This document shows, one piece after another, positions 13,273 to 31,645 of a stretch of DNA of 64,000 nt. Source of the DNA: Arcanobacterium pinnipediorum (GTDB lineage: Bacteria > Actinomycetota > Actinomycetes > Actinomycetales > Actinomycetaceae). The DNA is taken from the NCBI RefSeq assembly GCF_023973165.1, contig NZ_CP099547.1, positions 1,178,001 to 1,242,000 of the forward strand, given 5' to 3'. Positions within the stretch are counted from its first letter, which is position 1, and each line of letters begins with the position of its first letter. A program made the position numbers and the translations under genes. The notes beneath the pieces were generated by a model. It saw nothing but the letters and a program-made list of their open reading frames with translations, did not search any database and had not been told where the DNA came from.

Positions 13273-13312
13273 GGAGTGTACTAGGCGCTACCAACAGCCT
13301 TCGTTCGATATC

Positions 13313-13462
13313 CTAACTAATCCAATGCTCTACGTAAGCGATTAATCCTACCAATGCACCTAGGGACATACCTATATACAGCCACCAGTTACTTCCAGAA
13401 GCATAGATTTGGGAATATTCATCGTTTTCGTTTTTGAAACCATGTTTGTTCTTTGACGCCAT
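13313..13462 (-). CDS. Small single-pass membrane protein, 49 residues
   Basis: The ATG at 13462 has a GAGGAG ribosome binding site 6 bases upstream. The protein has a hydrophilic charged head (MASKNKHGFKNENDEY), then NWWLYIGMSLGALVGLIAYV as a transmembrane helix, and a short end (EHWIS). It is encoded on the opposite strand to both flanking operons, converging with the amino acid importer and divergent from the siderophore gene. The amphipathic layout and good start signal make it a likely real gene. The function is unknown. Confidence 0.6.
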   Translation of the reverse strand: MASKNKHGFKNENDEYSQIYASGSNWWLYIGMSLGALVGLIAYVEHWIS

Positions 13463-13610
13463 CGTCTACTCCTCAACTTCGTTAGTGCCAATACCACGCA
13501 TCTTACCGCTGGTTCTTAAACCACTTTATGTGCTGATTTCTATTCGCTTCATTTTAACATATGCCAGAACTATGGAGACCCTCAAACTGAATAATGAGCT
13601 TACTATATGC

Positions 13611-13629
13611 TTAGGTTAGGCTAACCTTG
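13611..13629 (+). promoter_or_regulatory. DtxR/IdeR iron-box
   Basis: TTAGGTTAGGCTAACCTTG matches the 19-bp DtxR/IdeR operator (TTAGGTTAGSCTAACCTAA) at all but the last two positions. It lies about 94 bases before the siderophore-interacting protein start, where repression by the iron-bound regulator would be expected. The regulator gene itself is not in this window. Confidence 0.8.
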
Positions 13630-13651
13630 GCTAGTAGATCTAAATGTGTCA

Positions 13652-13690
13652 AAATTAGCTGTGGGCACCGAAATTAGCTGTGTGGCACCG
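13652..13690. repeat. Two direct repeats of 19/20 bases between iron-box and gene
   Basis: AAATTAGCTGTGGGCACCG at 13652-13670 is followed directly by AAATTAGCTGTGTGGCACCG at 13671-13690. The copies differ by one extra base pair. They sit in the presumed 5' leader of the siderophore gene. They could be a remnant of a mobile-element end or a regulatory repeat. Confidence 0.6.
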
Positions 13691-13722
13691 AACTCGCACT
13701 CAACTGCTTAGGAGGTAGAACA

Positions 13723-14478
13723 ATGGGCAAAGGCGTTTACGGGGCAATCATGAAAATGTTGCGGGCAGAAAATCTTCCCTGCACTGTGACTAAGGTATGG
13801 ATGCTCAGTCCGACGATGAAGGCCGTGCGGGTCTCCTCACCGGATTTTATTCGTACCCACCGACCTGCGGAAGGTGAATATTTACGTTGTTGGTTCCCGC
13901 ATCCAGATAGACCTGCGAAAGAATCGATGCGTGGATACACCTTGACCGATGTCGACTATGAGACTGGGGAATTCACGCTATTGTTTCTGCTTCACCAGCC
14001 AGCCGGACCAGCTAGTTCCTGGGTAGGCAATGCCAAAGTTGGCGACAGTTTCGATGCCTCGTATTATGGCTCAGCACCTTTTGCAATCCCCCAACCAGCC
14101 CCGAAAGGGTTTGTGTTCATCGCCGATGCTGCTGGCATCCCCTACGTCAACGCGATGATCGACCAACTTGCAGAGAAGTTCCCGGTTAAAATATGGATGC
14201 TTGATTGGCATCCCAGCGACCATGAGATCCCAATCCACAGCCACCGAAATCTCACCGTAGATTGGGTAGAACCCAACGCGGTTGCTCTCTTAGAAAAAGC
14301 ACAGCAATTCTCCTGGGATGGATGGTTCCCGCATCTGATTTGCGAGGCGAAAATTCTTTTGAAAACCCGGCGCTACCTACTTAAAGAGGTAGGCATTTCT
14401 AAAGACCTCATGCATGCGCAGGCATACTGGATCAAGGGCAAAGCTATGGGCAGTGACCGAGACACTGACGCCAGTTGA
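13723..14478 (+). CDS. Siderophore-interacting FAD-binding reductase
   Basis: A member of the SIP/ViuB family, which uses NAD(P)H and FAD to reduce ferric siderophores in the cytoplasm. The N-terminal FAD-binding beta-barrel includes MRGYTLTDVDYETGEFTLLF (the RxYT FAD motif). Then come GPASSWVGNAKVGDSF, the NAD(P)H domain FIADAAGIPYVNAMI, and a C-terminal EAKILLKTRRYLLKEVGI helix-turn. At 251 residues it is the normal length. The ATG at 13723 has TTAGGAGG just upstream. The iron-box in the promoter supports iron-starvation induction. A strong ribosome binding site right after its stop now leads only into a 14-codon frame. Confidence 0.92.
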   Translation: MGKGVYGAIMKMLRAENLPCTVTKVWMLSPTMKAVRVSSPDFIRTHRPAEGEYLRCWFPHPDRPAKESMRGYTLTDVDYETGEFTLLFLLHQPAGPASSWVGNAKVGDSFDASYYGSAPFAIPQPAPKGFVFIADAAGIPYVNAMIDQLAEKFPVKIWMLDWHPSDHEIPIHSHRNLTVDWVEPNAVALLEKAQQFSWDGWFPHLICEAKILLKTRRYLLKEVGISKDLMHAQAYWIKGKAMGSDRDTDAS

Positions 14479-14488
14479 AGGAGGCGTA

Positions 14489-14533
14489 ATGGGGTTACGT
14501 CAAGGTTTCGACATCGTCGAGAACTTGACATAA
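14489..14533 (+). pseudogene. 14-codon open frame with strong ribosome binding site, probable gene remnant
   Basis: GAAGGAGGCGTA leads into an ATG and 14 codons (MGLRQGFDIVENLT) before TAA. A signal this good, placed 10 bases after the siderophore gene, suggests that a second operon gene once began here and was lost when the region beyond was rearranged. It could also be a leader peptide. The stretch 14534-14595 holds nothing else I can support. Confidence 0.3.
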
Positions 14534-14595
14534 ACATACAGAAACACGCTCGACACCTAACCTAACTGGATCGAAAACCCAGCTACGCCAGTGTT

Positions 14596-15177
14596 TTATA
14601 AAGGTAAGGCGTATAGAAAGAGAATCAACACCGGATAGACTACTCTTAAAGAAATCTTCAGACGATACCGATCCAGCCGCGCTGCGTCCAAGGCGCCCTC
14701 CTCGATTGCCGCGTGCACCGCACAATCTGGCTCAACCGTGTGGGTACAGTCCGAGAAAAAGCACCCGTGCGCAACATCCAAGATATCGCTGAAAACACGT
14801 GCGATTGATTCTTCATCTTCGACGACGGCGATCTCGCGTACACCAGGCGAATCAATCAAAATTAATCCATTATGAGTGTGTAGTGTCCGGCGCGTAGTTT
14901 TATGCCGGCCTTTACCATCACCTTCACGCACCTGCTCGGTAGCTAAAACAGCGCCGGTAAGCAGGTTAATCATCGTAGATTTTCCAGCACCTGAGCGACC
15001 AAAGACTACGGCAGTCTTTCCACTGCCAAGCGCATTGATTAACTCAGTAAAACTTTGCGAATCATCTTGGGTGGTAACAAAAACCTGATCAACTACTGTA
15101 GCGACGCTCTCCAAAGTACGCTTAGCTTCGGCGTCATCCACTAAATCTGACTTTATTGCCACTAACCAGGCCTCTAC
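14596..15177 (-). pseudogene. rsgA: 5'-truncated rsgA (ribosome-associated GTPase)
   Basis: The circularly permuted GTPase order of RsgA is present: G4-like KSDL, then Walker A GRSGAGKST, then G3 DSPGVREI. It is followed by the zinc-binding pattern C-x4-C-x-H-x5-C (GCFFSDCTHTVEPDCAV). The N-terminal OB-fold and the start of the GTPase domain are missing. Instead the frame runs upstream, without a stop, into the C-terminal part of a phage portal gene (27 portal-like residues ending RQNG). The extreme C-terminus (YPVLILFLYALPL) is also unusual for the family and may mark a frameshift. RsgA normally matures the 30S subunit, so this copy is almost certainly inactive. Confidence 0.8.
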
Positions 15178-15178
15178 C

Positions 15179-16278
15179 CCGTTCTGCCGAGGCACCGCAT
15201 ACCCATCCATCCGCGACTTGTAATCCCCACGCAAGAGCCCCTCGAGGTTGAACTTCACCTAGACCTGTGGTTTCTCACGGTCACTCAGGAGAGTTTTAGT
15301 AATGGCTTGTTCCCAGCGGATAACCCACGGATCAAGCGTCTACTTCACAAACTCCAATGACTGCTGTTCGATGTTAGAGAAGCTGGATTTTTCGAGGTCT
15401 CCGACCATGTGTGGTGGGATGCAGAAGATACGCGCGATTTCATTGATCTGAAACTTCCGTGTCTCCAAAAACTGCGCCTGCTCAGGAGAGACAGAAATAG
15501 GCGTGTATTTCATGCCCTCTTCCAACACCGCGATCTTGTTACCATTCCTCGCGCCGCCAAAGGTGGACTGCCAGGAATCGCGAACGCGGGCCGGATCCTT
15601 AATCGTGCCTGGGTGTTCGAGCACACCACCCGGAGCCGCACCATTAGCAAAAAAGCTCGCCCCATAGTCCTCGGTAGCCTGAGCTAAGCCGATGGCGTTC
15701 TTGGCCATCGCAATCGGCGAATACCCAACCAACTCATCAAAACCCAGACCAGGAATATGCAACACGTCCCGCGCGTCAAGGGTGAAGTTTTCGAACCTAC
15801 CCGTTGGTTCATCCCACGTGCGTTGATACTCGTAATACAACCGTCCAGCCTCATCACGGCCAACTGTCATTCGGCTTGGCATGAGCGGATACAGGCCGAT
15901 GACCTCATCGGGGCCGTTTCTGAGCACTTGAGCAAACGCGTTACCCCACAACAACAAGTGCGTCATGAGAGTTTCACGGAAAACAAAGGATGTCATCTCC
16001 GGGTTCGGCTCATCATGCAACAACCTATAAAGCGGATGATCCAGTGCCTTCGCCTTCGCACCATCAGAACTCTGCTGGTAAACATGCAACGACAGACCAG
16101 CAATAGCTTCGGCCAAAATCCGCACACAACTGTAGACGGCGGTCATCTGCATCGCGCTGCGCTCCGTCACCGGACGGCCCGACGAGGTCGCCCCGAAGAA
16201 AAAGCTGTAGCCAGAGCTGATCGCGTGATCGTCAGCGGTGCGGGTAGTGTCGCCACGCAACCAGTCAAAAAGTCCCAT
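15179..16278 (-). pseudogene. Phage portal protein (HK97 type), broken by two amber codons and truncated
   Basis: It starts MGLFDWLRGDTTR with a GGAAGTG ribosome binding site. The body has the HK97-portal hallmarks AVYSCVRILAEAIAGLSL, GNAFAQVLRN and NEIARIFCIPPHMVGDLEK. The first TAG is at 15340-15342, after SLEFVK; the same frame then continues with family-like TLDPWVIRWEQAITKTLLSD. A second TAG follows KPQV, and after it FNLEGLLRGDYKSRMDGYAV is again portal sequence. At about 15177 it fuses in frame to rsgA. Portal proteins form the dodecameric DNA gate of the capsid, so this copy cannot work. The cut marks the left edge of the prophage; protease, capsid and tail genes that should follow are absent. 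Confidence 0.88.
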
Positions 16279-16311: not shown

Positions 16312-17121
16312 ATGAGCACTCACTCGATAGAAACGTTTTTGCTAGCCCCTGAACTATCGGGCAAAGCTAGTTCTGAGCACGTGAAAGCATGGCTGAAATA
16401 CAGAGCAGGTGGCGGCGTAAAAGATCCTGACAGTTCCAAAGAGTGCCGAGACTTTTACCAGTTGATGTGGGGCTCCATGCTTGCTGGGATCGGCATGGAG
16501 CTAAGACCATGCCCAGAGAGGTTCAGTCAAAATCCCATCAAGTACGTGCAGGGTGACTGGATGTGTTCCGTCTGGAATACATTGAAGCAAGGTCTCCAAA
16601 TCCAGTACGGTACATCCACGTGGTGGGCGAAGCCGCACATAGAGAACACTTTCAAAGGCAATGCTGTAACTGAACAGACTTTCAAAGCACTTTTGATCCA
16701 CTTCGACGAGTTCACTGAGATACTTGCCGATAGCTCCCTTCAAGAGTTCGTTCGATCCGCATATACACTGGCAAACTTGATCGTTGTACCTGACGGTTTC
16801 AATTCGGCGCGAGCCCTACCCACAAAAGATTATTGGGACAAAACTCTTCGCTTATACTTCGAACACTTCAATCCGACTAAACCGCTCACTTACAAGTCTG
16901 CTTACGATGTCGGCACACCATTTCATCGGCTCATAAATGCGAGCCTTGAGAATGGTGATGCGTTGTTCTTGAGTGATTGGCTCGACGAGACCGGCTGTGT
17001 ATTAAATCTCCCGTCAAACAAACCAGCATCCATTGAGGAATGGCGCGGCTTGCTCATCGAGATGACTAGAAGGATCGAATCCAGACGTAACCGAATGCGA
17101 GATCGTATCCCTAAGTCATAG
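16312..17121 (+). CDS. Unknown 269-residue protein, prophage cargo gene in reverse orientation
   Basis: A complete frame lies between terminase and portal genes but on the opposite strand. It fills the gap where the portal normally follows the terminase directly, and its stop overlaps the terminase end by 6 bases. It has no signal peptide or membrane helix and is rich in Trp and Phe. Notable segments are VKDPDSSKECRDFYQLMWGS, the central ANLIVVPDGFNSARALPTKD and YWDKTLRLYFEHFN, and a basic C-terminus (RRIESRRNRMRDRIPKS). The D-x-S...YHxxLW-like start and the GN-x-PxxFNxxR middle resemble a family of unknown function near DUF6994; this is not verified. The autonomous position suggests a moron such as a defence or superinfection gene. 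Confidence 0.75.
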   Translation: MSTHSIETFLLAPELSGKASSEHVKAWLKYRAGGGVKDPDSSKECRDFYQLMWGSMLAGIGMELRPCPERFSQNPIKYVQGDWMCSVWNTLKQGLQIQYGTSTWWAKPHIENTFKGNAVTEQTFKALLIHFDEFTEILADSSLQEFVRSAYTLANLIVVPDGFNSARALPTKDYWDKTLRLYFEHFNPTKPLTYKSAYDVGTPFHRLINASLENGDALFLSDWLDETGCVLNLPSNKPASIEEWRGLLIEMTRRIESRRNRMRDRIPKS

Positions 17122-18720
17122 AACAAGTATTCCTCGCGCGTCATAAACGCTGCCACTGACGTGTCCAGCGCCGCATCTGACTGCTCCGTCGAGGGGCATG
17201 ATCGTAGCGACAACCCCGTCGATCTTCTCAGTGCTCTTTTGCTTGTCAGGCTTAATGTTGCCTGCCGGGTCGGTGCGCACGTGAATGTTGTCTACCATCC
17301 ATGACAGCACTGGGTGGGCGCCATGGGCGAGCTTGCCTTCTAGGGCGAGTTTCATGAGTTCTTTTGATGGTGGGCTCATGTCTTTGAATCCTTGCCCGAA
17401 GGGAACGACGGTGAAACCGAGTCCTTCGAGGTTTTGGCTCATTTGGACTGCTCCCCACCGGTCGAACGCGATCTGCCGAATATCGAACCGTGTGCCTAGT
17501 TCTTCGATTAATGCCTCGATAGCACTGTAGTGGACGACGTTTCCTTCCGTGGTCTGCAGGAACCCTTGCTGTTCCCATAAGGCATAGGGCACGTGATCGC
17601 GAGCCACACGGAGTTTGAGGTTGTCTTGCGGTATCCAAAACCACGGCGCAATCACATACGATTCGTCACCTGTTTGGGGTGGGAAGACGAGGACGAATGC
17701 TGTGATATCTGTCGTGGAGGCGAGGTCGAGCCCGCCAAAGCAAACCCGGCCTTCCAGATCAGATAGATCAACGGACGCTGAGTTTTGGTTCCAGACGTGC
17801 ATGGGCATCCACCGCACGCTTTGTTTGACCCATTGGTTGAGTCGTAACTGTCTGAAGGTGTTTTCTTCGGCAGGGTTTTGCTTCGCACTCGTGCAGGCTT
17901 GGCGGACTTTTTCGATCGGGACAGTGATTCCCAGAGACGGGTTAGCCTTCGCCCAGACCTTCTCATCTGTCCAGTCATCTTGCGCGTCGGCACCATAGAT
18001 CACTGGATAGAACGTCGGGTCATGCTTTTTACCAGCAAGGATGTCTGTGGCTTTTTCATGCTGCTCATAGCAAATGCTATGGGTATCGGTTCCGGCGGTG
18101 GTGATGAGGAAGTACAACGGTTGGGTGCGAGCATCACCAGATCCCTTGGTCATAACGTCGAAGAGTGCCCGGTTGGGTTGGGTGTGGAGTTCGTCGAAGA
18201 CGACGCCGGAGATGTTGAATCCGTGCTTCGAATACGCCTCAGCTGACAAGACTTGGTAGAAGCTGTTAGTGGGCTTGTAGATGATCCGTTTCTGACTAGC
18301 CAGAATCTTCACGCGTTTGGATAAGGCGCGGCTCATGCGGATCATGTCGGCTGCGACTTCGAAAACGATCGAGGCTTGCTGGCGGTCTGCCGCGCACCCG
18401 TAGACTTCGGCGCGTTCTTCCCCATCCCCACATGTCAGCAGTAGCGCAACAGCGGCAGCGAGCTCGGACTTGCCCATTTTCTTGGGTATTTCAACGTAGG
18501 CGGTGGTGAACTGTCGGTAGCCATCTGGTTTGATAGTGCCGAATAGGTCACGGATGATTTGCTCTTGCCAATCGATGAGCTGGAATGGTTTACCTGACCA
18601 GCGGCCTTTCGTGTGCTTGAGCGCTTGAATGAAAGCAACCGCGAAATCGGCCTTACGCCTGTCATAGCGAGAGCAGTCAGCCATGAACCGGGTTGGCGTG
18701 TATTCGGTCAGGGTTCGCAT
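17116..18720 (-). CDS. Phage terminase large subunit
   Basis: The DNA-packaging motor ATPase and nuclease, 534 residues, apparently intact. The N-terminal ATPase has a Walker A-like YVEIPKKMGKSELAA and Walker B GVVFDELH, with coupling motif LITTAGTDT. The C-terminal RNase H-like nuclease includes GGLDLASTTDITAF and a later acidic region ending KSTEKIDGVVATIMPLDGAV, typical of HK97-type TerL. The ATG at 18720 has an excellent AGGAGGAGGCG site. It lies downstream of two small genes, the methyltransferase, metK and TerS on the same strand. Packaging would need the portal, which is broken here. Confidence 0.95.
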   Translation of the reverse strand: MRTLTEYTPTRFMADCSRYDRRKADFAVAFIQALKHTKGRWSGKPFQLIDWQEQIIRDLFGTIKPDGYRQFTTAYVEIPKKMGKSELAAAVALLLTCGDGEERAEVYGCAADRQQASIVFEVAADMIRMSRALSKRVKILASQKRIIYKPTNSFYQVLSAEAYSKHGFNISGVVFDELHTQPNRALFDVMTKGSGDARTQPLYFLITTAGTDTHSICYEQHEKATDILAGKKHDPTFYPVIYGADAQDDWTDEKVWAKANPSLGITVPIEKVRQACTSAKQNPAEENTFRQLRLNQWVKQSVRWMPMHVWNQNSASVDLSDLEGRVCFGGLDLASTTDITAFVLVFPPQTGDESYVIAPWFWIPQDNLKLRVARDHVPYALWEQQGFLQTTEGNVVHYSAIEALIEELGTRFDIRQIAFDRWGAVQMSQNLEGLGFTVVPFGQGFKDMSPPSKELMKLALEGKLAHGAHPVLSWMVDNIHVRTDPAGNIKPDKQKSTEKIDGVVATIMPLDGAVRCGAGHVSGSVYDARGILVL

Positions 18721-19266: not shown

Positions 19267-20511
19267 TCATGATCCTACCCGTTCAACGTCCTTGACCAGA
19301 TCCAAATACCTGTACTGCTTACCGTCACGCACACAGGTAATACCAGCGGCGTCACCGGTGTGCTCAGCATAGCGGCGAAGAATAACGCTCGCGTATTTCT
19401 CATCGATCTCCATGCAATAGCAGATACGATCGGTTGCCTCGCACGCCATCAATGTCGAACCGGAGCCTGCGAAGGTATCGAGCACGATCGCATTCGCTTG
19501 GGTCGAGTTCCCAATCGGATATGCGAGCAGATCCAACGGCTTCGATGTCGGATGATCACTGTTTTTGCGGGGTTTGGCAAAGTTCCAGATCGTGGTCTGC
19601 TTCCGGTCGGCATACCAGCGGTGTTTACCTGTTTTCTCCCACCCATAGAGCACCGGCTCGTGTTGCCATTGATATGGAGATCGGCCAAGAACGAGTGAGT
19701 CTTTGACCCAGATGCAGCATCCGGACAAGTAGAATCCAGCATCGTTAAAAGCACGTCGGAAGTTCAGTCCTTCAGTGTCAGCATGGAAGACATACGCGCT
19801 CGCACCCTTCTCACACGCGCTTGCCATATTCGTAAATGCTGATAGCAGGAAGTCGTAGAACTTGTCGGCGGCCATCTTGTCGTTCTTGATGGACAAGCCT
19901 GAGCCTGATTCAAAGGCGACATTGTATGGCGGATCGGTGAGCACGAGGTTCGCGCGCTTACCACCCATCAAAGTCTCGACGTCGTCAGTGCTGGTGGCAT
20001 CGCCGCACACTAACCGGTGGCGGCCTACCGTCCACACATCCCCACGCTTAACGAACGCGGCGGCTACTAACGCTGCGGTGAGGTCGAAATCATCATCTTC
20101 AACCTCGCCTTCATCCAACGAGCCGATGAGTTGAGCGATCTCGGCGTCGTCAAAACCAGTCAGTTCCGCATCGAAATCACTCGCGTCAAGATCGGCAATC
20201 AAGAGGGCGAGTTTATCGTTATCCCATTCGCCACTGATCTTGTTGAGCGCAATGTTCAGGGCTTTCTCGCGGGTCTCATCCAGCTCAACAACAATCACGT
20301 CAACGTCCGTATGTCCAAGGTCTTCGAGCACCTTCAAACGCTGGTGCCCACCCACGACATGCCCAGTGGTTTGGTTCCAAATGACAGGCTCAACATACCC
20401 GAACTCGGTGAGTGACCGCTTGAGCTTCTCATACTCGACATCACCGGGCTTCAGGTCCTTGCGGGGGTTGTAGTCCGCGGGTTTCAGCTCACTAATCGGC
20501 ATTGTTTTCAT
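19267..20511 (-). CDS. Phage DNA methyltransferase with ParB-like N-terminal domain
   Basis: Residues ~1-100 are a ParB/sulfiredoxin-like domain (NPRKDLKPGDVEYEKLKRSL, then GHVVGGHQRLKVLEDLGH). Residues ~160-410 are an amino-methyltransferase of beta order: DPPYNV precedes the SAM-binding FAGSGSTLMACE. It would make N6-adenine or N4-cytosine and is common in actinophage and staphylococcal prophages. It appears intact, unlike most of the prophage, so it may still modify host DNA. The gene begins within the end of the broken metK; possible ATGs are at 20517, 20511 and 20502. No cognate restriction enzyme is visible, so it is best seen as an orphan that protects phage DNA. Confidence 0.92.
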   Translation of the reverse strand: MKTMPISELKPADYNPRKDLKPGDVEYEKLKRSLTEFGYVEPVIWNQTTGHVVGGHQRLKVLEDLGHTDVDVIVVELDETREKALNIALNKISGEWDNDKLALLIADLDASDFDAELTGFDDAEIAQLIGSLDEGEVEDDDFDLTAALVAAAFVKRGDVWTVGRHRLVCGDATSTDDVETLMGGKRANLVLTDPPYNVAFESGSGLSIKNDKMAADKFYDFLLSAFTNMASACEKGASAYVFHADTEGLNFRRAFNDAGFYLSGCCIWVKDSLVLGRSPYQWQHEPVLYGWEKTGKHRWYADRKQTTIWNFAKPRKNSDHPTSKPLDLLAYPIGNSTQANAIVLDTFAGSGSTLMACEATDRICYCMEIDEKYASVILRRYAEHTGDAAGITCVRDGKQYRYLDLVKDVERVGS

Positions 20512-21678
20512 AAGCATACTTGGTCACCGCCTTCTCTAGCGCGTCAACGTGAGCGAACGAGTTCTCCCAATGCAGGCCCGCATGGCCGAAGTGCCCATAG
20601 GTTGAGTAGCGGGTGTAGCCGGGTGCTCGCAGACCAAGAGCATCAATAATCGCACCGGGGCGAAGCGCGAACACCTCGCGTGCAGCACGGGTGAGCATCT
20701 CATCGCAATACTCACCCGTGCCAAGGGTGTCGATCGTAAACGCCACCGGGTTGGCCTTCCCAATCGCATAGCTGATCGCCACCTGGCACTCAGCTGCGAG
20801 GTGGGCATCAACAATGGTTTTCGCAATCAGACGCGCCATATAAGCACCCGACCTGTCAACCTTGGACGCATCCTTACCACTAAACGCTCCACCACCATGC
20901 GGGCCAAGACCACCATAGGTATCAACCATGAGCTTACGCCCTGTCAAACCGGTGTCAGCCTTCGGGCAACCCACGGTAAACATGCCCGACGGGTTAATAA
21001 GAATCTCGGTATCAGCACCGATCGGCAAATACGGCTTACACGCCGGGCAACAATCAAAGTTTTCACCTCAGCCGCAAGCTCATCCAGATCCTTGGCTGGA
21101 TCGTGTTGGATGGAGACCACCACGGTCTCGATCGCTACTGGCTGCCCAGCCTGGTCATAACGAACTGTCACCTGCGCCTTACCATCGGACTTAATACCAG
21201 CAATAGTACCCTGCTTGCGAGCATCGTCAAGACGACCACAGATCTCATGTGCGAGCACGAGCGGCAACGTTTAACGTTGAGGCGTTTCGGCTGTGGCATA
21301 GCCGTAAACTGTGCCTTGGTCGCCAGCGCCTTGGAGTGCGAATTCGGTGTCGTCACCGAAGCGTGCCTCAAAGGATTTGGAGACTCCTGCGTTGATGTCT
21401 GGTGATTGGCGGTGTGTCCAAACAAGAACGCGGAACTTCCACGGCTTATAGCCCGCCTTCACTAGCGCGTAGCGCACCGATTCACGGATGCGGGGACGTA
21501 CCTTCGTCGTGATCTCGCCCGTGACAATAATCCGATGACCAGACGCCTTAACCTCCACAGCTACACGCGCAGTTGGGTCGTCGTAGAGAATATCATCAAG
21601 GACCGTATCGGCGATTCTGTCGCAGAGCTTATCAGGATGGCCGATACAAGTGGCCTCAGCAGTCTTCGTAGCAGACAT
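20492..21678 (-). pseudogene. metK: Phage-borne metK (S-adenosylmethionine synthetase), two lesions
   Basis: The frame starts at 21678 with MSATKTAEATCIGHPDKLCD (the ATP-binding GHPDK). It runs to GAGDQGTVYGYATAETPQR and stops at TAA (21271-21273). The same frame continues TLPLVLAHEICGRL, exactly what follows in MetK. Removing the six bases TAAACG restores QRLPLVLAHE, so a 6-bp insertion made the stop. A second lesion near 21045-21065 shifts the frame. The new frame carries the rest of the enzyme: INPSGMFTVGCPKADTGLTG, DTYGGLGPHGGGAFSGKD and KVDRSGAYMARL. The C-terminal domain ends at TAG next to the methyltransferase. An intact version would have supplied SAM to the adjacent methylase. Confidence 0.9.
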
Positions 21679-21756
21679 ACACACACTCGCTTTCAAAGAA
21701 ACAGGGCAGAGCAAAGCGCCCACCCGTAAACACAGGCAGGCAAAAGAAAGAAAGAG

Positions 21757-22329
21757 CTAGGAGCGGGCTTTGAGGAGCTGTTCCATCACGTCATCACCAG
21801 GAGCGCCGCCCGAATAATCACTCGTGCACGTAGCACGCAAAATCTCGTAAATCTCATACCAATACACATTCGCTTGCTTACCAAACGACTGCGACATAGC
21901 AACAAACGGAGACGCGATCGCAGCACCCGTCGTCGGATGTTTACCGAGCAGACCGAACTTCGAAATCGCCTGCTCACACTGCACATACCGAGCAAACGCC
22001 CGCGCATAAGATTCAATCAAGCGCGGGGCCACAAACTGTGAACAGCCACGGGCATCGAGCCACTGCCACGTTTCTCGATAGACCAAGTCAGCGCCAAGCG
22101 GTTTACCATCACCCTGAACCTCAGAAAGATAATCCGAGGGTTCGGGCATTGTCTCCCCAGCAAGTATCGCACCATCACCAATATCGCTGCCTTCAAAATC
22201 AAAAGGCTCATTAAGCGGATCTTCAAGGCGGGTCGTATTACGTCCTGCTGCGAGCTTCTCATTCAACGCATCAGGCTTCGCACCTGCGCGCACGCGGCGG
22301 CCACCTCGGTTGGTGCCGTCTTTCGCCAT
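21757..22329 (-). CDS. Phage terminase small subunit (P27 type)
   Basis: The start MAKDGTNRGG at 22329 has an AAGGAG site 8 bases upstream; the longer frame is not supported. The 190-residue protein opens with the P27-like basic patch GGRRVRAGAKPDALNEKLAAGR. Then comes an acidic linker and the helical core DLVYRETWQWLDARGCSQFV with AFARYVQCEQAISKFGLLGK, ending at SFGKQANVYWYEIYEILRAT. TerS recognises phage DNA ends and loads TerL. Here it is separated from TerL by metK, the methyltransferase and two small genes, which is unusual but seen in actinobacterial prophages. Confidence 0.85.
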   Translation of the reverse strand: MAKDGTNRGGRRVRAGAKPDALNEKLAAGRNTTRLEDPLNEPFDFEGSDIGDGAILAGETMPEPSDYLSEVQGDGKPLGADLVYRETWQWLDARGCSQFVAPRLIESYARAFARYVQCEQAISKFGLLGKHPTTGAAIASPFVAMSQSFGKQANVYWYEIYEILRATCTSDYSGGAPGDDVMEQLLKARS

Positions 22330-22409
22330 GATGCATCTCCTTATCATTGGTCGATACGGCCTTGAATCGGAGGCCAGGAGTGGCACCCCACTGCCTGTTA
22401 TTCCTATTT

Positions 22410-23850: not shown

Positions 23851-24228
23851 TCAATACGTGTAAACCCGCGATGCTTGCCTCCAGCGGTCGTCATCGAGCG
23901 CGCTCTGGCGTGAGTGGCGGGGCTTGCACAAGCTCCGCAGGTTGTCGAAGTCGTGGGTGCCGCCGTGTTCAAGCGGGAGCACGTGGTGGACTTCCTGCAC
24001 GGGTGTGTACCGACCGGCCTCGAGGCAGTCTTCGCAGAGCGGGTGCTGGGCGACGTAGGCAGCGCGGATCTTACGCCACCGCGACCCGTAGCGGCGGTTG
24101 ATCTTCGGGTCGCGCTGGTACTTGCAGTAGCGTGCGTCTTCCGCCTTGGCATGGGCCTTGCAGAAGCGTTCACGGGTCAATTCAGGGCAACCAGGGTGGG
24201 AGCACGGGGACGCTGGTTTAACTGGCAT
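23851..24228 (-). CDS. Phage HNH endonuclease
   Basis: The start MPVKPASPCSHPGC at 24228 is chosen for AAAGGAGC upstream. The 125-residue protein has a zinc-binding N-terminus (CSHPGCPEL..RFCKAH) and an HNH domain: LCEDCLEAGRYTPVQEVHHV, LPLEHGGTHDFDNLRSLCKP and a final His. Small HNH nucleases beside TerS nick DNA during packaging in HK97-type phages (family knowledge). All catalytic positions look intact. The 155 bases between it and the broken regulator gene hold only sequence without a clear frame. Confidence 0.88.
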   Translation of the reverse strand: MPVKPASPCSHPGCPELTRERFCKAHAKAEDARYCKYQRDPKINRRYGSRWRKIRAAYVAQHPLCEDCLEAGRYTPVQEVHHVLPLEHGGTHDFDNLRSLCKPRHSRQSALDDDRWRQASRVYTY

Positions 24229-24539
24229 CGCTTTTGCTCCTTTCCTGAGCATGGTGAAGCCCCAAGCTCCCGATGCTGGGTTCTTGGGGCTTGTCCTACT
24301 TTTCAACCACCTACATCGTCTCATAGGAAAAGGCGCATATGCATCCGCCGTTCTTGACACCTTTTAACGCACTGGGTGCACACCTATAGCCGTCCATACA
24401 GTGCGGTCGCGAGACGAGCCAAGGCGCGCGGCTTCTTTTGGTAGGCGGTGGTGCATTCGACGTAGAGATGGTTGCAGATCTGCTGAACCGCATCCTCTTG
24501 GGTTCCTTCGCCGAAGAAGAACGCTTCCAGCACTAAACG

Positions 24540-25936
24540 GGCTCTTCGGATTTTGGCGGGGTTAGGGGATGTGAAAGTGGTGAAGATAGTTCATGCTTAG
24601 AGTGTGAGCAAAAAACCTGAAACTATCTTCACCAGTTCTGATCCTAACGTAATCGTGGCTCGTTTGCTGAGTTTAAAAGATGTTGTGCCTGTGGCTTATC
24701 ATCGTCACGGACCACACCAGTCAATCGAGATCGAGCAAGATCTTAACACCGTGGTGTGTCCTCGATGCAAGGTACGGGCACGAGTCAAGGATAGGCCACG
24801 AGTTCCTTATATCGATCTGCCCGTTTACGGACGCCCCATGGGTTTGATCTGGCGTAAACACCGCTGGTATTGTCCTAACCATCAATGCGATATGGGGTCA
24901 TGGACAAGCCAGGACAAACGCATTGCTAGTAGACACTGTCGGTTAACGACCAGGGCAGCTAAATGGGCGACCAGGCAAGTAGGAATGGGACGGACAATAA
25001 GTGAAGTCGCTGCCGAGCTGGGCTGTGATTGGCACACGATTAACCATACCGTGACCGTCTACGGGCAGGCCTTACTTGATGCTGATCGTAAACGTTTATC
25101 TCAAACTCCTGCAATCGGTCTTGACGAGACAAGTTTCGTTCGTTTGAACAAACGCCCTACCCAATATGTGACCACGCTATGCGATGTAGCCAACCACCAG
25201 ATCATTGATATTATTCCAAGCCGTAACTATGTTGAGGTTGCCCGTTTCCTTCACCGCTTCCCTACCTATTGGAAACAAGGAATCAGCTATGCCACACTCG
25301 ATATGAGCCCGGCCTACCGGGCTGTTTTCAACGTGGTCACACCACACGCTACCCAAGTCGCTGACCACTTCCACGTCATCACATTAGCTAACCGAGCCCT
25401 TGATCGTGTACGCCGGCGTGTTCAACAACAAACACTTGGACACCGCGGACGAAAAACCGACCCGCTCTACCGTATAAGACGCCAACTTGTCTACGGACAA
25501 GAAAAACTCACCGATAAAACACAACATCGGATCGAATCACTTTTACGCTTAGGAGACCCTCATGGTGAAGTCGCTATCGCTTACCGTGTCAAAGAACGCC
25601 TCCGAAATTTCTACGCTCAAGACAACATCACCACCGCTCAAACCATGCTTGATCAACTCATCAACCACACCAGCCAGGACTTCATGCCCCAAGAAATCCA
25701 ACAACTTAGCCGAACACTTAAAAACTGGTATCACCAGATCCTGGCCTACCACCACGCCCGCCTATCGAACTCGATCACCGAAGCCATGAACAACCTCATC
25801 AAACGCATCAAAAGAATCGGCTACGGATTTACCAACTTCACCAACTACCGCATCAGATGCCTCCTCTACGCAGGCAAACCCAACTGGCGACTCCTCAACA
25901 CAATCTTCCCCTAACCCCGCCAAAATCCGAAGAGCC
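24540..25936 (+). mobile_element. ISL3-family insertion sequence, complete (1397 bp)
   Basis: The 30-bp terminal inverted repeats are perfect (beginning GGCTCTTCGGATTTTGGCGG, 24540-24569 and 25907-25936). They are flanked by the 8-bp target duplication ACTAAACG (24532-24539 and 25937-25944), the size typical of ISL3. The transposase stop codon lies inside the right repeat. With intact ends, target duplication and transposase it looks young and potentially active. It interrupts a phage late regulator. Confidence 0.95.
24604..25914 (+). CDS. ISL3-family transposase
   Basis: 436 residues from GTG at 24604. The N-terminal ISL3 zinc finger (VVCPRCKVRARVKDRPR...RWYCPNHQC) is followed by a helix-turn-helix (GRTISEVAAELGCDWHTINH). 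The catalytic DDE region comes next: GLDETSF, LDMSPAYRAVF and the Glu in ITEAMNNLIKRIKRIGYGF. No frameshift or stop is seen. It is closely related to, but clearly distinct from, the transposase at 29926-31236, so the two elements are different members of one family, not recent copies. Confidence 0.95.
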   Translation: MSKKPETIFTSSDPNVIVARLLSLKDVVPVAYHRHGPHQSIEIEQDLNTVVCPRCKVRARVKDRPRVPYIDLPVYGRPMGLIWRKHRWYCPNHQCDMGSWTSQDKRIASRHCRLTTRAAKWATRQVGMGRTISEVAAELGCDWHTINHTVTVYGQALLDADRKRLSQTPAIGLDETSFVRLNKRPTQYVTTLCDVANHQIIDIIPSRNYVEVARFLHRFPTYWKQGISYATLDMSPAYRAVFNVVTPHATQVADHFHVITLANRALDRVRRRVQQQTLGHRGRKTDPLYRIRRQLVYGQEKLTDKTQHRIESLLRLGDPHGEVAIAYRVKERLRNFYAQDNITTAQTMLDQLINHTSQDFMPQEIQQLSRTLKNWYHQILAYHHARLSNSITEAMNNLIKRIKRIGYGFTNFTNYRIRCLLYAGKPNWRLLNTIFP

Positions 25937-26705: not shown

Positions 26706-26781
26706 TGGTGGAGCATAGGGGATTCGAACCCCTGACCTTTTCATTGCGAACGAAACGCGCTACCAACTGCGCCAATGCCCC
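26706..26781 (-). tRNA. tRNA-Ala (anticodon CGC)
   Basis: A full 76-base cloverleaf including CCA. The acceptor GGGGCAT pairs with ATGCTCC, the D arm is GCGCAGTTGGTAGCGC, the anticodon loop TTCGCAA gives CGC, and the T arm has GGTTCGAATCCCC. It reads GCG alanine codons. Confidence 0.95.
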
Positions 26782-29861: not shown

Positions 29862-31493
29862 GGCTCTTCGCGTTTTAGCGGGGTGTGGAGATGCAGAAGT
29901 GGTGAAGGTAGTTCATGCTTAGAGTGTGAATCAAAAACTTGAACGTACCTTCACCGCTTATGATCCTACCGTAATTCTTGCTCGGCTTGTGAGTTTGAAA
30001 GATATTCGCGTCTTGGCGTATCACCGTCATGGCTCTCAACAGGAAATCGAAATTGAACAAGTCCTTAAGAGACCAACATGCCCACGTTGTGAAAGTCTTG
30101 CACGCGTTAAAGAAAGGCCAAGAGTACGGTATATAGATTTACCTGTCTATGGTCGGTCTATGAGCTTGTTATGGCGTAAGCACCGCTGGTATTGTCCAAA
30201 CGTTGCATGTGATGTTGGTTCATGGACAAGTCAAGATAAACGTATTGCTGCTCAACGTTGCCAGATGACTACCAGGGCAGCTAAATGGGCGACCCAGCAA
30301 GTAGGCATGGGACGAACAATTAGCGAAGTCGCAGCTGAACTTGGTTGTTCTTGGCACACAGTCAATGATGCAGTAACTATGTATGGTCAAGTGTTACTAC
30401 AAGCAGACCGTAAGCGTTTAAACAAGACTCACGCAATCGGGCTTGATGAAACAAGTTTCGTTCGCATACAAGGACACCGCACAAGTTATGTCACTACGGT
30501 ATGTGACGTCGAGCATCATCAAATCATTGATATTATCCCAAGCTGTAACTACATAGACGTAGCCCGCTATTTAAAAGACCAGCCCAACGCTTGGAAAGCA
30601 CGAATCCGCTATGCCACTTTAGACATGAGCCCAACATACCGTGCTGTGTATAACGTGGTATTACCCCAGGCAACTCAAATAGCTGATCATTTCCATGTGA
30701 TTACGTTAGCCAATCGTGTGTTAGATACTGTACGTAGACGCGTACAAAATCAGACCTTGGGACACCGTGGGCATAAAAAAGATCCTTTATACAAGATTCG
30801 GCGTTTACTGACATATGGTAGTGAAAAACTACTGCCAGCAATGGTCCAGCGTCTAGAAAGCATGCTTGTGTTAGGAGATCCTCACGCTGAAGTAGCGATT
30901 GCGTATCGGATAAAAGAACGCTTACGAGAGTTTTATCAGCAAACAGATCTTGGTGTTGCGACCACCATGCTTGCAGAATTGATACAAACATGCCTGGATG
31001 TGGCTATGCCCCCAGAAATTCAGCAGCTAGGACGCACGCTACAACGATGGCAGCTTCAAATCTTGGCGTATCATCAAACGCATCTTTCTAATTCCATCAC
31101 CGAGGCGTTAAACAATCTCATCAAACGTATTAAACGTATCGGATTTGGGTTCACGAATTTCAACAACTATCGCATTCGTGCATTACTGTATGCCGGTAAA
31201 CCTAACTGGAGACTGCTGCATAATATCTTCGTGTAACCTGTTTACCAGTGAGAAGATCACAAGGCATTTTCTATCATCGAGTGTTGCTCGCACTAACACC
31301 AACGGGTTAACAAAGACAATGTATGTTGCTTACTTTTATATAGTTATTCCGGGCCACTAAAAATCTCATCACCACCACATTAACGCCAACGAAAACACAG
31401 CTGCTAACTTTAAAATCACTACACCAGCACCTGATACTAGGCCAGTAAACCCACCGAGTAACAACGTTTCACCCCGCTAAAACGCGAAGAGCC
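29862..31493 (+). mobile_element. ISL3-family insertion sequence, complete (1632 bp)
   Basis: Terminal repeats begin GGCTCTTCGCGTTTTAGCGG (24 bp perfect). They are flanked by the 8-bp duplication GCATTTTC (29854-29861 and 31494-31501). The element is about 235 bp longer than the one at 24540 because of a non-coding tail at 31237-31470 between transposase and right end. The tail shows no gene I can support. Confidence 0.95.
29926..31236 (+). CDS. ISL3-family transposase
   Basis: 436 residues from GTG at 29926. It keeps the zinc finger (CPRCESLARVKERPR...RWYCPNVACD), the helix-turn-helix GRTISEVAAELGCSWHTVND, and the catalytic segments GLDETSF, LDMSPTYRAVY and ITEALNNLIKRIKRIGFGF. The bases just before the start (GTTCATGCTTAGAGTGTGA) are shared with the other element, so promoter and start are conserved between them. 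It appears intact. Confidence 0.95.
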   Translation: MNQKLERTFTAYDPTVILARLVSLKDIRVLAYHRHGSQQEIEIEQVLKRPTCPRCESLARVKERPRVRYIDLPVYGRSMSLLWRKHRWYCPNVACDVGSWTSQDKRIAAQRCQMTTRAAKWATQQVGMGRTISEVAAELGCSWHTVNDAVTMYGQVLLQADRKRLNKTHAIGLDETSFVRIQGHRTSYVTTVCDVEHHQIIDIIPSCNYIDVARYLKDQPNAWKARIRYATLDMSPTYRAVYNVVLPQATQIADHFHVITLANRVLDTVRRRVQNQTLGHRGHKKDPLYKIRRLLTYGSEKLLPAMVQRLESMLVLGDPHAEVAIAYRIKERLREFYQQTDLGVATTMLAELIQTCLDVAMPPEIQQLGRTLQRWQLQILAYHQTHLSNSITEALNNLIKRIKRIGFGFTNFNNYRIRALLYAGKPNWRLLHNIFV

Positions 31494-31645
31494 GCATTTT
31501 CCCAATCACGCGCACTAAGATCTGAAACGCCAATAAGATGCGAAGCACCGATAAAACGCAACGCGATACCAAGACCCGAAGCACCACAAAGCCATCCGAT
31601 TGATCTGTAGCCACCCAGGTACAGGAACGAACACATAAAACAAAT

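Follow-up and report, generated by a model that had tools for sequence, protein, structure and literature searches.

RsgA (also YjeQ or EngC; TIGR00157, PF03193) is a GTPase of small-subunit biogenesis whose N-terminal domain adopts an OB-fold. The locus described here holds an internal fragment of an RsgA paralogue, located at 14659..15177 on the minus strand of the window, i.e. the whole analysed stretch of 64,000 nucleotides from Arcanobacterium pinnipediorum. Like the described family, the fragment has a GTPase core and a Cys/His segment, and its score of 121.7 on TIGR00157 is above the cut-off of 100. It differs by the loss of the N- and C-terminal parts. Furthermore, its clade stands apart from the canonical copy that is linked to aroA, and its relatives are usually linked to an ABC exporter.

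In front of the fragment lies the remnant of a phage portal gene (15178..16278, minus strand; Pfam Phage_portal with E 9e-99, PHROG phrog_12). We take the portal family PF04860/phrog_12 to be of the HK97 type. The remnant keeps codons 1-367 and aligns over this range without gaps with the intact portal gene of a prophage in the same genome (L070, 434 codons), with 81% DNA identity over 1086 ungapped bases. Described portals of this type have a continuous open frame of full length, whereas the remnant carries two in-frame stops and has lost the C-terminal 67 of 434 codons.

Two further described systems are relevant to the relatives of the fragment. DrrAB-type ABC-2 exporters resemble the exporter genes that accompany the paralogue in other genomes: the ATPase at L117, one of these loci, was similar to TIGR01188 (E 1.4e-63) and one of its permeases to TIGR00025 (E 2.2e-4). 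However, both scores remained under the curated cut-offs, and the operon differs in having two permeases and an rsgA gene. In Streptomyces coelicolor, the RsgA/EngC pair SCO6149 and SCO5211 appears among WblC-activated genes and their paralogues in the context of tetracycline, according to excerpts of PMC7157823. SCO6149 is taken as the WblC-activated member, judged by the order of listing in these excerpts. The common feature is a second rsgA in an actinomycete.

The fused reading frame and its junction

A 220-codon reading frame on the minus strand (15258-14596) is present in the window, without any stop and with intact GTPase motifs. In Pfam, its residues 2-28 matched positions 284-310 of 321 of Phage_portal with E 0.009, under the curated cut-off, and residues 25-144 matched positions 51-172 of 174 of RsgA_GTPase with E 4.9e-25. 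Residues 1-31 shared 93% identity with an open portal frame of 436 codons in the same genome (C1:590337-590420) and 75-86% with nine further places in eight relatives. The portal origin of the start is certain because of these relatives, the Pfam match alone being weak.

A preliminary description of this DNA, made from the letters alone, had reported two in-frame amber codons in the portal gene, an in-frame junction with rsgA at about 15177, 27 portal-like residues before it and RsgA-like residues after it. All of these features were recovered. The TAG stops are located at 15340-15342 and 15259-15261, and L070 has none. DNA-level comparison covered five of the ten matching portal places, namely L070 and the loci L078-L081 from four congeners, and the portal homology ended exactly at 15178 in all five. 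The rsgA homology begins at 15177 (minus strand) and stops near 14660. An assignment of the first 27 residues to RsgA was rejected, as portal relatives match residues 1-31 and their homology ends at 15178. The segment LLRGD, whose absence from portal homologues had been considered, was found by eye in three of the five portal relatives, and LLRG was found in all five.

The junction at 15177..15178 (minus strand) was compared by eye with the five portal relatives and with the closest rsgA relative. The letters CGGG at the breakpoint are common to the portal relatives and L117, and the glycine codon GGG stands in the same register in both. The ends were probably joined via this CGGG match inside a shared glycine codon, which fits a deletion at a microhomology and would account for the kept frame without selection. 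Since L117 is a relative of only 57% identity, the microhomology step is what we infer from this comparison.

The junction is known from a single assembly of one strain. It was not found in viral contigs, and plasmids searched with 14400-15180 gave no match. Among phage records, 143 matched the portal DNA of the window at 60-80% identity and 175 matched the fused protein, and a scan of 84,980 named genomes yielded 29 more distant loci. The fused frame is a pseudogene. The prophage portals L080 and L081 from two congeners have lost approx. 175-220 bases at nearby inner places; because of these losses, portal decay can be regarded as recurrent in the genus.

Intact RsgA and the accessory paralogue

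Residues 21-199 of the fused frame correspond to residues 130-308 of 351 of the protein at L117, an intact RsgA-type protein from a member of the family, with 57% identity. The fragment itself corresponds to approx. residues 137-308 and is truncated at both ends. Its GTPase core with the motifs, identified by the L117 alignment and the profile, and its Cys/His segment are retained. The N-terminal domain of a functional RsgA is missing, as the homology starts at approx. residue 137 of L117 with portal codons in its place, and the complete C-terminal tail behind the Cys/His segment is missing as well, as the homology stops at approx. residue 308. The preliminary description had thus been right about the loss of the 5′ part and had not noted the truncation at the 3′ end.

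The identity of the fragment to L117 (57%) contrasts with 30-35% to the canonical RsgA of its own genome. Its closest relatives belong to other genera, with 58% (G219), 57% (G151, containing an internal stop) and 51% identity (G035). At E 1e-24, matches to the fragment occurred in 25 of 212 other genomes of the family, one of which (G018) was canonical in the tree. At the same threshold, the accessory paralogue was detected in none of the eight congeners, and the DNA of 13300-15180 had no match in them.

The genome searched comprises 1,952,277 bases in one contig and is 99.99% complete. Besides the piece in the window, one gene exceeded the cut-off in a whole-genome search for the RsgA_GTPase family. 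This gene at 331 kb comprises 355 codons in one uninterrupted frame (C1:331235-332302; RsgA_GTPase with E 2.7e-43), and the EPSP synthase gene (aroA) is located directly upstream. Each of the eight congeners has one strong RsgA-type match as an open frame of 335-376 codons.

A tree was calculated from 48 rows, i.e. 47 rsgA loci and the fossil, with a quick IQ-TREE run and SH-aLRT support and without bootstrap; L035, L036 and L040 were below the phmmer threshold and were left out. The canonical clade (17 rows, SH-aLRT 100) holds the intact copy of this strain together with the copies of four congeners. A second clade (18 rows, SH-aLRT 100) includes the fossil, which groups with L117 and L119 from G219 and G151 (SH-aLRT 99). 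Thirteen more paralogues lie outside both clades. A copy of the canonical gene as source of the fragment was rejected on account of the separate clades, and blastn of the 2.6-kb junction region against the 13-kb canonical region gave no match at E 1e-3. Judged by homology and tree position, the fused piece is a separate accessory RsgA paralogue, a dispensable second rsgA, and ribosome assembly rests on the intact gene at 331 kb. As the piece belongs to an accessory paralogue, the gene of the housekeeping GTPase was left untouched.

The prophage remnant and the origin of the fusion

The phage homology extends to approx. 26.1 kb, near the gene for tRNA-Ala(CGC) at 26706..26781 (minus strand; ARAGORN, blastn), and the remnant adjoins this tRNA both here and in the congener G004. 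Besides the portal gene, it retains on the minus strand the genes for an HNH endonuclease of the packaging module (23851..24360; phrog_144, E 1e-31), the small terminase subunit (21757..22386; phrog_83, E 3e-26), the large terminase subunit (17116..18720; 534 aa, the same length as its relative in this genome), an open ParB-N/DNA methyltransferase gene (19267..20517) and a broken phage-borne S-adenosylmethionine synthetase gene (20492..21723). The latter adjoins the ParB-N/DNA methyltransferase gene, and its Pfam S-AdoMet_synt N and C domains are found in separate frames here; in L070 and L167 the synthetase gene is one frame of 398 and 397 codons, respectively. A scan of ten ORFs from 15.3 to 24.4 kb revealed no integrase. 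A 269-codon gene without matches in Pfam, PHROGs and PADLOC is located in antisense between the portal and large terminase genes (16312-17121, plus strand). The length of this gap varies among the compared prophages.

The remnant was also hit by an ISL3-family insertion (24551..25935, plus strand; Pfam DDE_Tnp_ISL3), which is absent from the related remnant of G004, as L167 is continuous across the site. An ISL3-type element outside the remnant (approx. 29862-31495) recurs in the genome in seven more copies that are near-identical and similar in length; it is 69% identical to the copy at 24551-25935. Next to it, a short repeat at approx. 29566-29627 matches many places in the genome, in several cases on both strands, pointing to a family of palindromic repeats.

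On the side of the rsgA fragment, the neighbouring gene encodes a siderophore-interacting protein of full length (13723..14478, plus strand; Pfam SIP with E 9.5e-16). Sixteen other genomes of the family have matches to it with 31-55% identity; none of the eight congeners has one at E 1e-30, and no match was found at the other loci of the rsgA paralogue. The DNA between this gene and the fragment (14479..14658) is a relic. It has no second place in its own genome at E below 0.09, and a search of 213 family genomes at E ≤0.01 returned its own genome and one 41-base match only.

The locus is variable in the genus. In the four of eight congeners that could be placed on both flanks, the interval from the end of clcA to tRNA-Ala measured approximately 7.0 (G005), 13.3 (G008), 15.6 (G004) and 17.3 kb (G006), compared to 16.8 kb here. 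The same packaging genes adjoin the same tRNA in G004, where the large terminase occupies two frames and is not followed by any portal match. This remnant is related and is likewise broken and decaying. In G007, matching phage DNA is located approx. 13 kb from tRNA-Ala(CGC), and the packaging genes had no match in the clcA-tRNA interval of G005, G006 and G008.

The whole locus is very probably the scar of a deletion during prophage decay that reached into an accessory, ABC-linked rsgA. A prophage adjoining tRNA-Ala(CGC) would have decayed to its packaging module, and a deletion would then have joined the portal gene, after codon 367, to approx. codon 137 of a neighbouring accessory rsgA paralogue. 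This would have removed the 3′ end of the portal gene, the later phage genes, one end of the prophage and, from the paralogue, its 5′ part. The upstream ABC exporter genes would also have been lost, provided that the operon of the paralogue was complete here. The ends would have met at the CGGG match in the glycine codon, so that the frame survived by chance, and a second breakpoint or separate decay may have removed the 3′ end of rsgA near 14660. The preliminary description had already proposed that a deletion took the remaining phage genes together with the 5′ part of rsgA, and this is still the best explanation. The unbroken ancestral arrangement was present in none of the genomes searched, and the deletion is thus reconstructed and not seen. 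The missing packaging genes in G005, G006 and G008, the failure to find the siderophore gene at the other paralogue loci and the lack of matches to further operon proteins in this genome also count against this account.

The truncation at the 3′ end could also mean that the internal piece alone was inserted. Such an insertion by illegitimate recombination or horizontal transfer, with the piece conceivably being phage cargo, would explain why the fragment lacks both ends and why neither the fragment nor the siderophore gene occurs in any of the eight congeners. RsgA-like matches in records filed as phage, with at least two named rsgA among the matches listed, would be in line with it. However, these matches reached just 26-42% identity among the best 20 of 175, and several of the listed records look, in our judgement, like host DNA. 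Insertion also needs two joins for a piece of 520 bases, whereas one deletion and 3′ erosion are simpler, and the site is a place of repeated prophage decay. We consider an insertion improbable.

Two other readings concern the function of the fused gene and are both very hard to maintain. The preliminary description had implied that the strain lacks RsgA unless another copy exists elsewhere, and the fragment is clearly an RsgA homologue by its RsgA_GTPase match and its TIGR00157 score. A search of the genome for a second rsgA, as it had suggested, led to the intact frame beside aroA that groups with the canonical genes from four congeners, by which a life without RsgA is refuted at the sequence level and retains next to no credibility. 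A working chimeric gene with a portal-derived start and a GTPase core would fit the 220 codons without a stop and the kept GTPase motifs, but such a protein would lack the N-terminal part and the C-terminal tail of RsgA. Upstream, there is only the portal gene with its two stops, and no clear ribosome-binding site was seen by eye before the GTG of the fused frame, so a working chimera appears extremely unlikely. As the strain keeps its normal RsgA gene, the fusion is mostly a case of ordinary genome decay. It illustrates that accessory host genes can be lost through a deletion at a prophage in decay, with an in-frame chimera left behind that a gene caller may annotate as 'RsgA', and it calls for caution, as one broken copy does not equal the loss of a housekeeping gene.

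The ABC exporter-rsgA operon in relatives

The fossil itself is of little importance; the side result on the operon of its relatives matters more and is a better lead than the fusion. Genes for an ATPase, two permeases and the second rsgA were consecutive on one strand in 14 of the 17 clade rows besides the fossil (L072, L073, L076, L117, L118, L120, L122, L123, L125 and L127-L131). A relic of the ATPase gene is kept in G151, and none of the ABC genes was found within the fetched stretch of L121 and L124. Among the 13 paralogues outside the two clades, several of which lie on short contigs, permeases were found in none and an ATPase match nearby in one (L137). Directly upstream of the fossil rsgA, the ABC ATPase and the two permeases are absent, with phage DNA there instead. 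The genome of this strain had no match to the TPR-like and second permease proteins of L117 in searches run without a positive control.

In Pfam, the ATPase of L117 belonged to ABC_tran, and both permeases reached ABC2_membrane with 26.4 and 22.5 bits at a cut-off of 26.9. One permease of L072 was tested and had no match. A TPR-like protein, so named on the basis of weak matches, is encoded ahead of the ATPase in seven of the 14 operons, in one case split in two frames and in another as a short piece.

By analogy with the S. coelicolor pair as it appears in the excerpts cited above, a role of the ABC exporter-RsgA operon under translation stress is plausible. The published promoter motif of the WblC/WhiB7 type was found in none of the 14 operons, neither in a strict nor in a loose form, in a stretch of up to 2 kb before the ATPase gene, and the loose motif was also absent from the opposite strand; these searches were run without a positive control. 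In the literature searched, with few subscription journals among it, linkage of an RsgA gene to an ABC exporter was not found described. Tentatively, and with distinctly less than even confidence, we suggest that the TPR-like protein, the ABC-2-type exporter and the second RsgA may form an undescribed operon type of the Actinomycetaceae that acts as a two-layer protection module. The exporter would remove a compound that targets the ribosome, and the paralogous RsgA would mature or repair stalled small subunits. The module would have been gained, moved and lost between species and would be seen in the middle of its loss here. The occurrence of another RsgA immediately after the exporter genes in 14 family genomes points to a testable module that borders on both ribosome assembly and export. 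In a comparison with defence-system models, six other proteins tested gave no match, and the two RsgA proteins weakly matched dynamin-like and other NTPase models with a best E of 4e-8.
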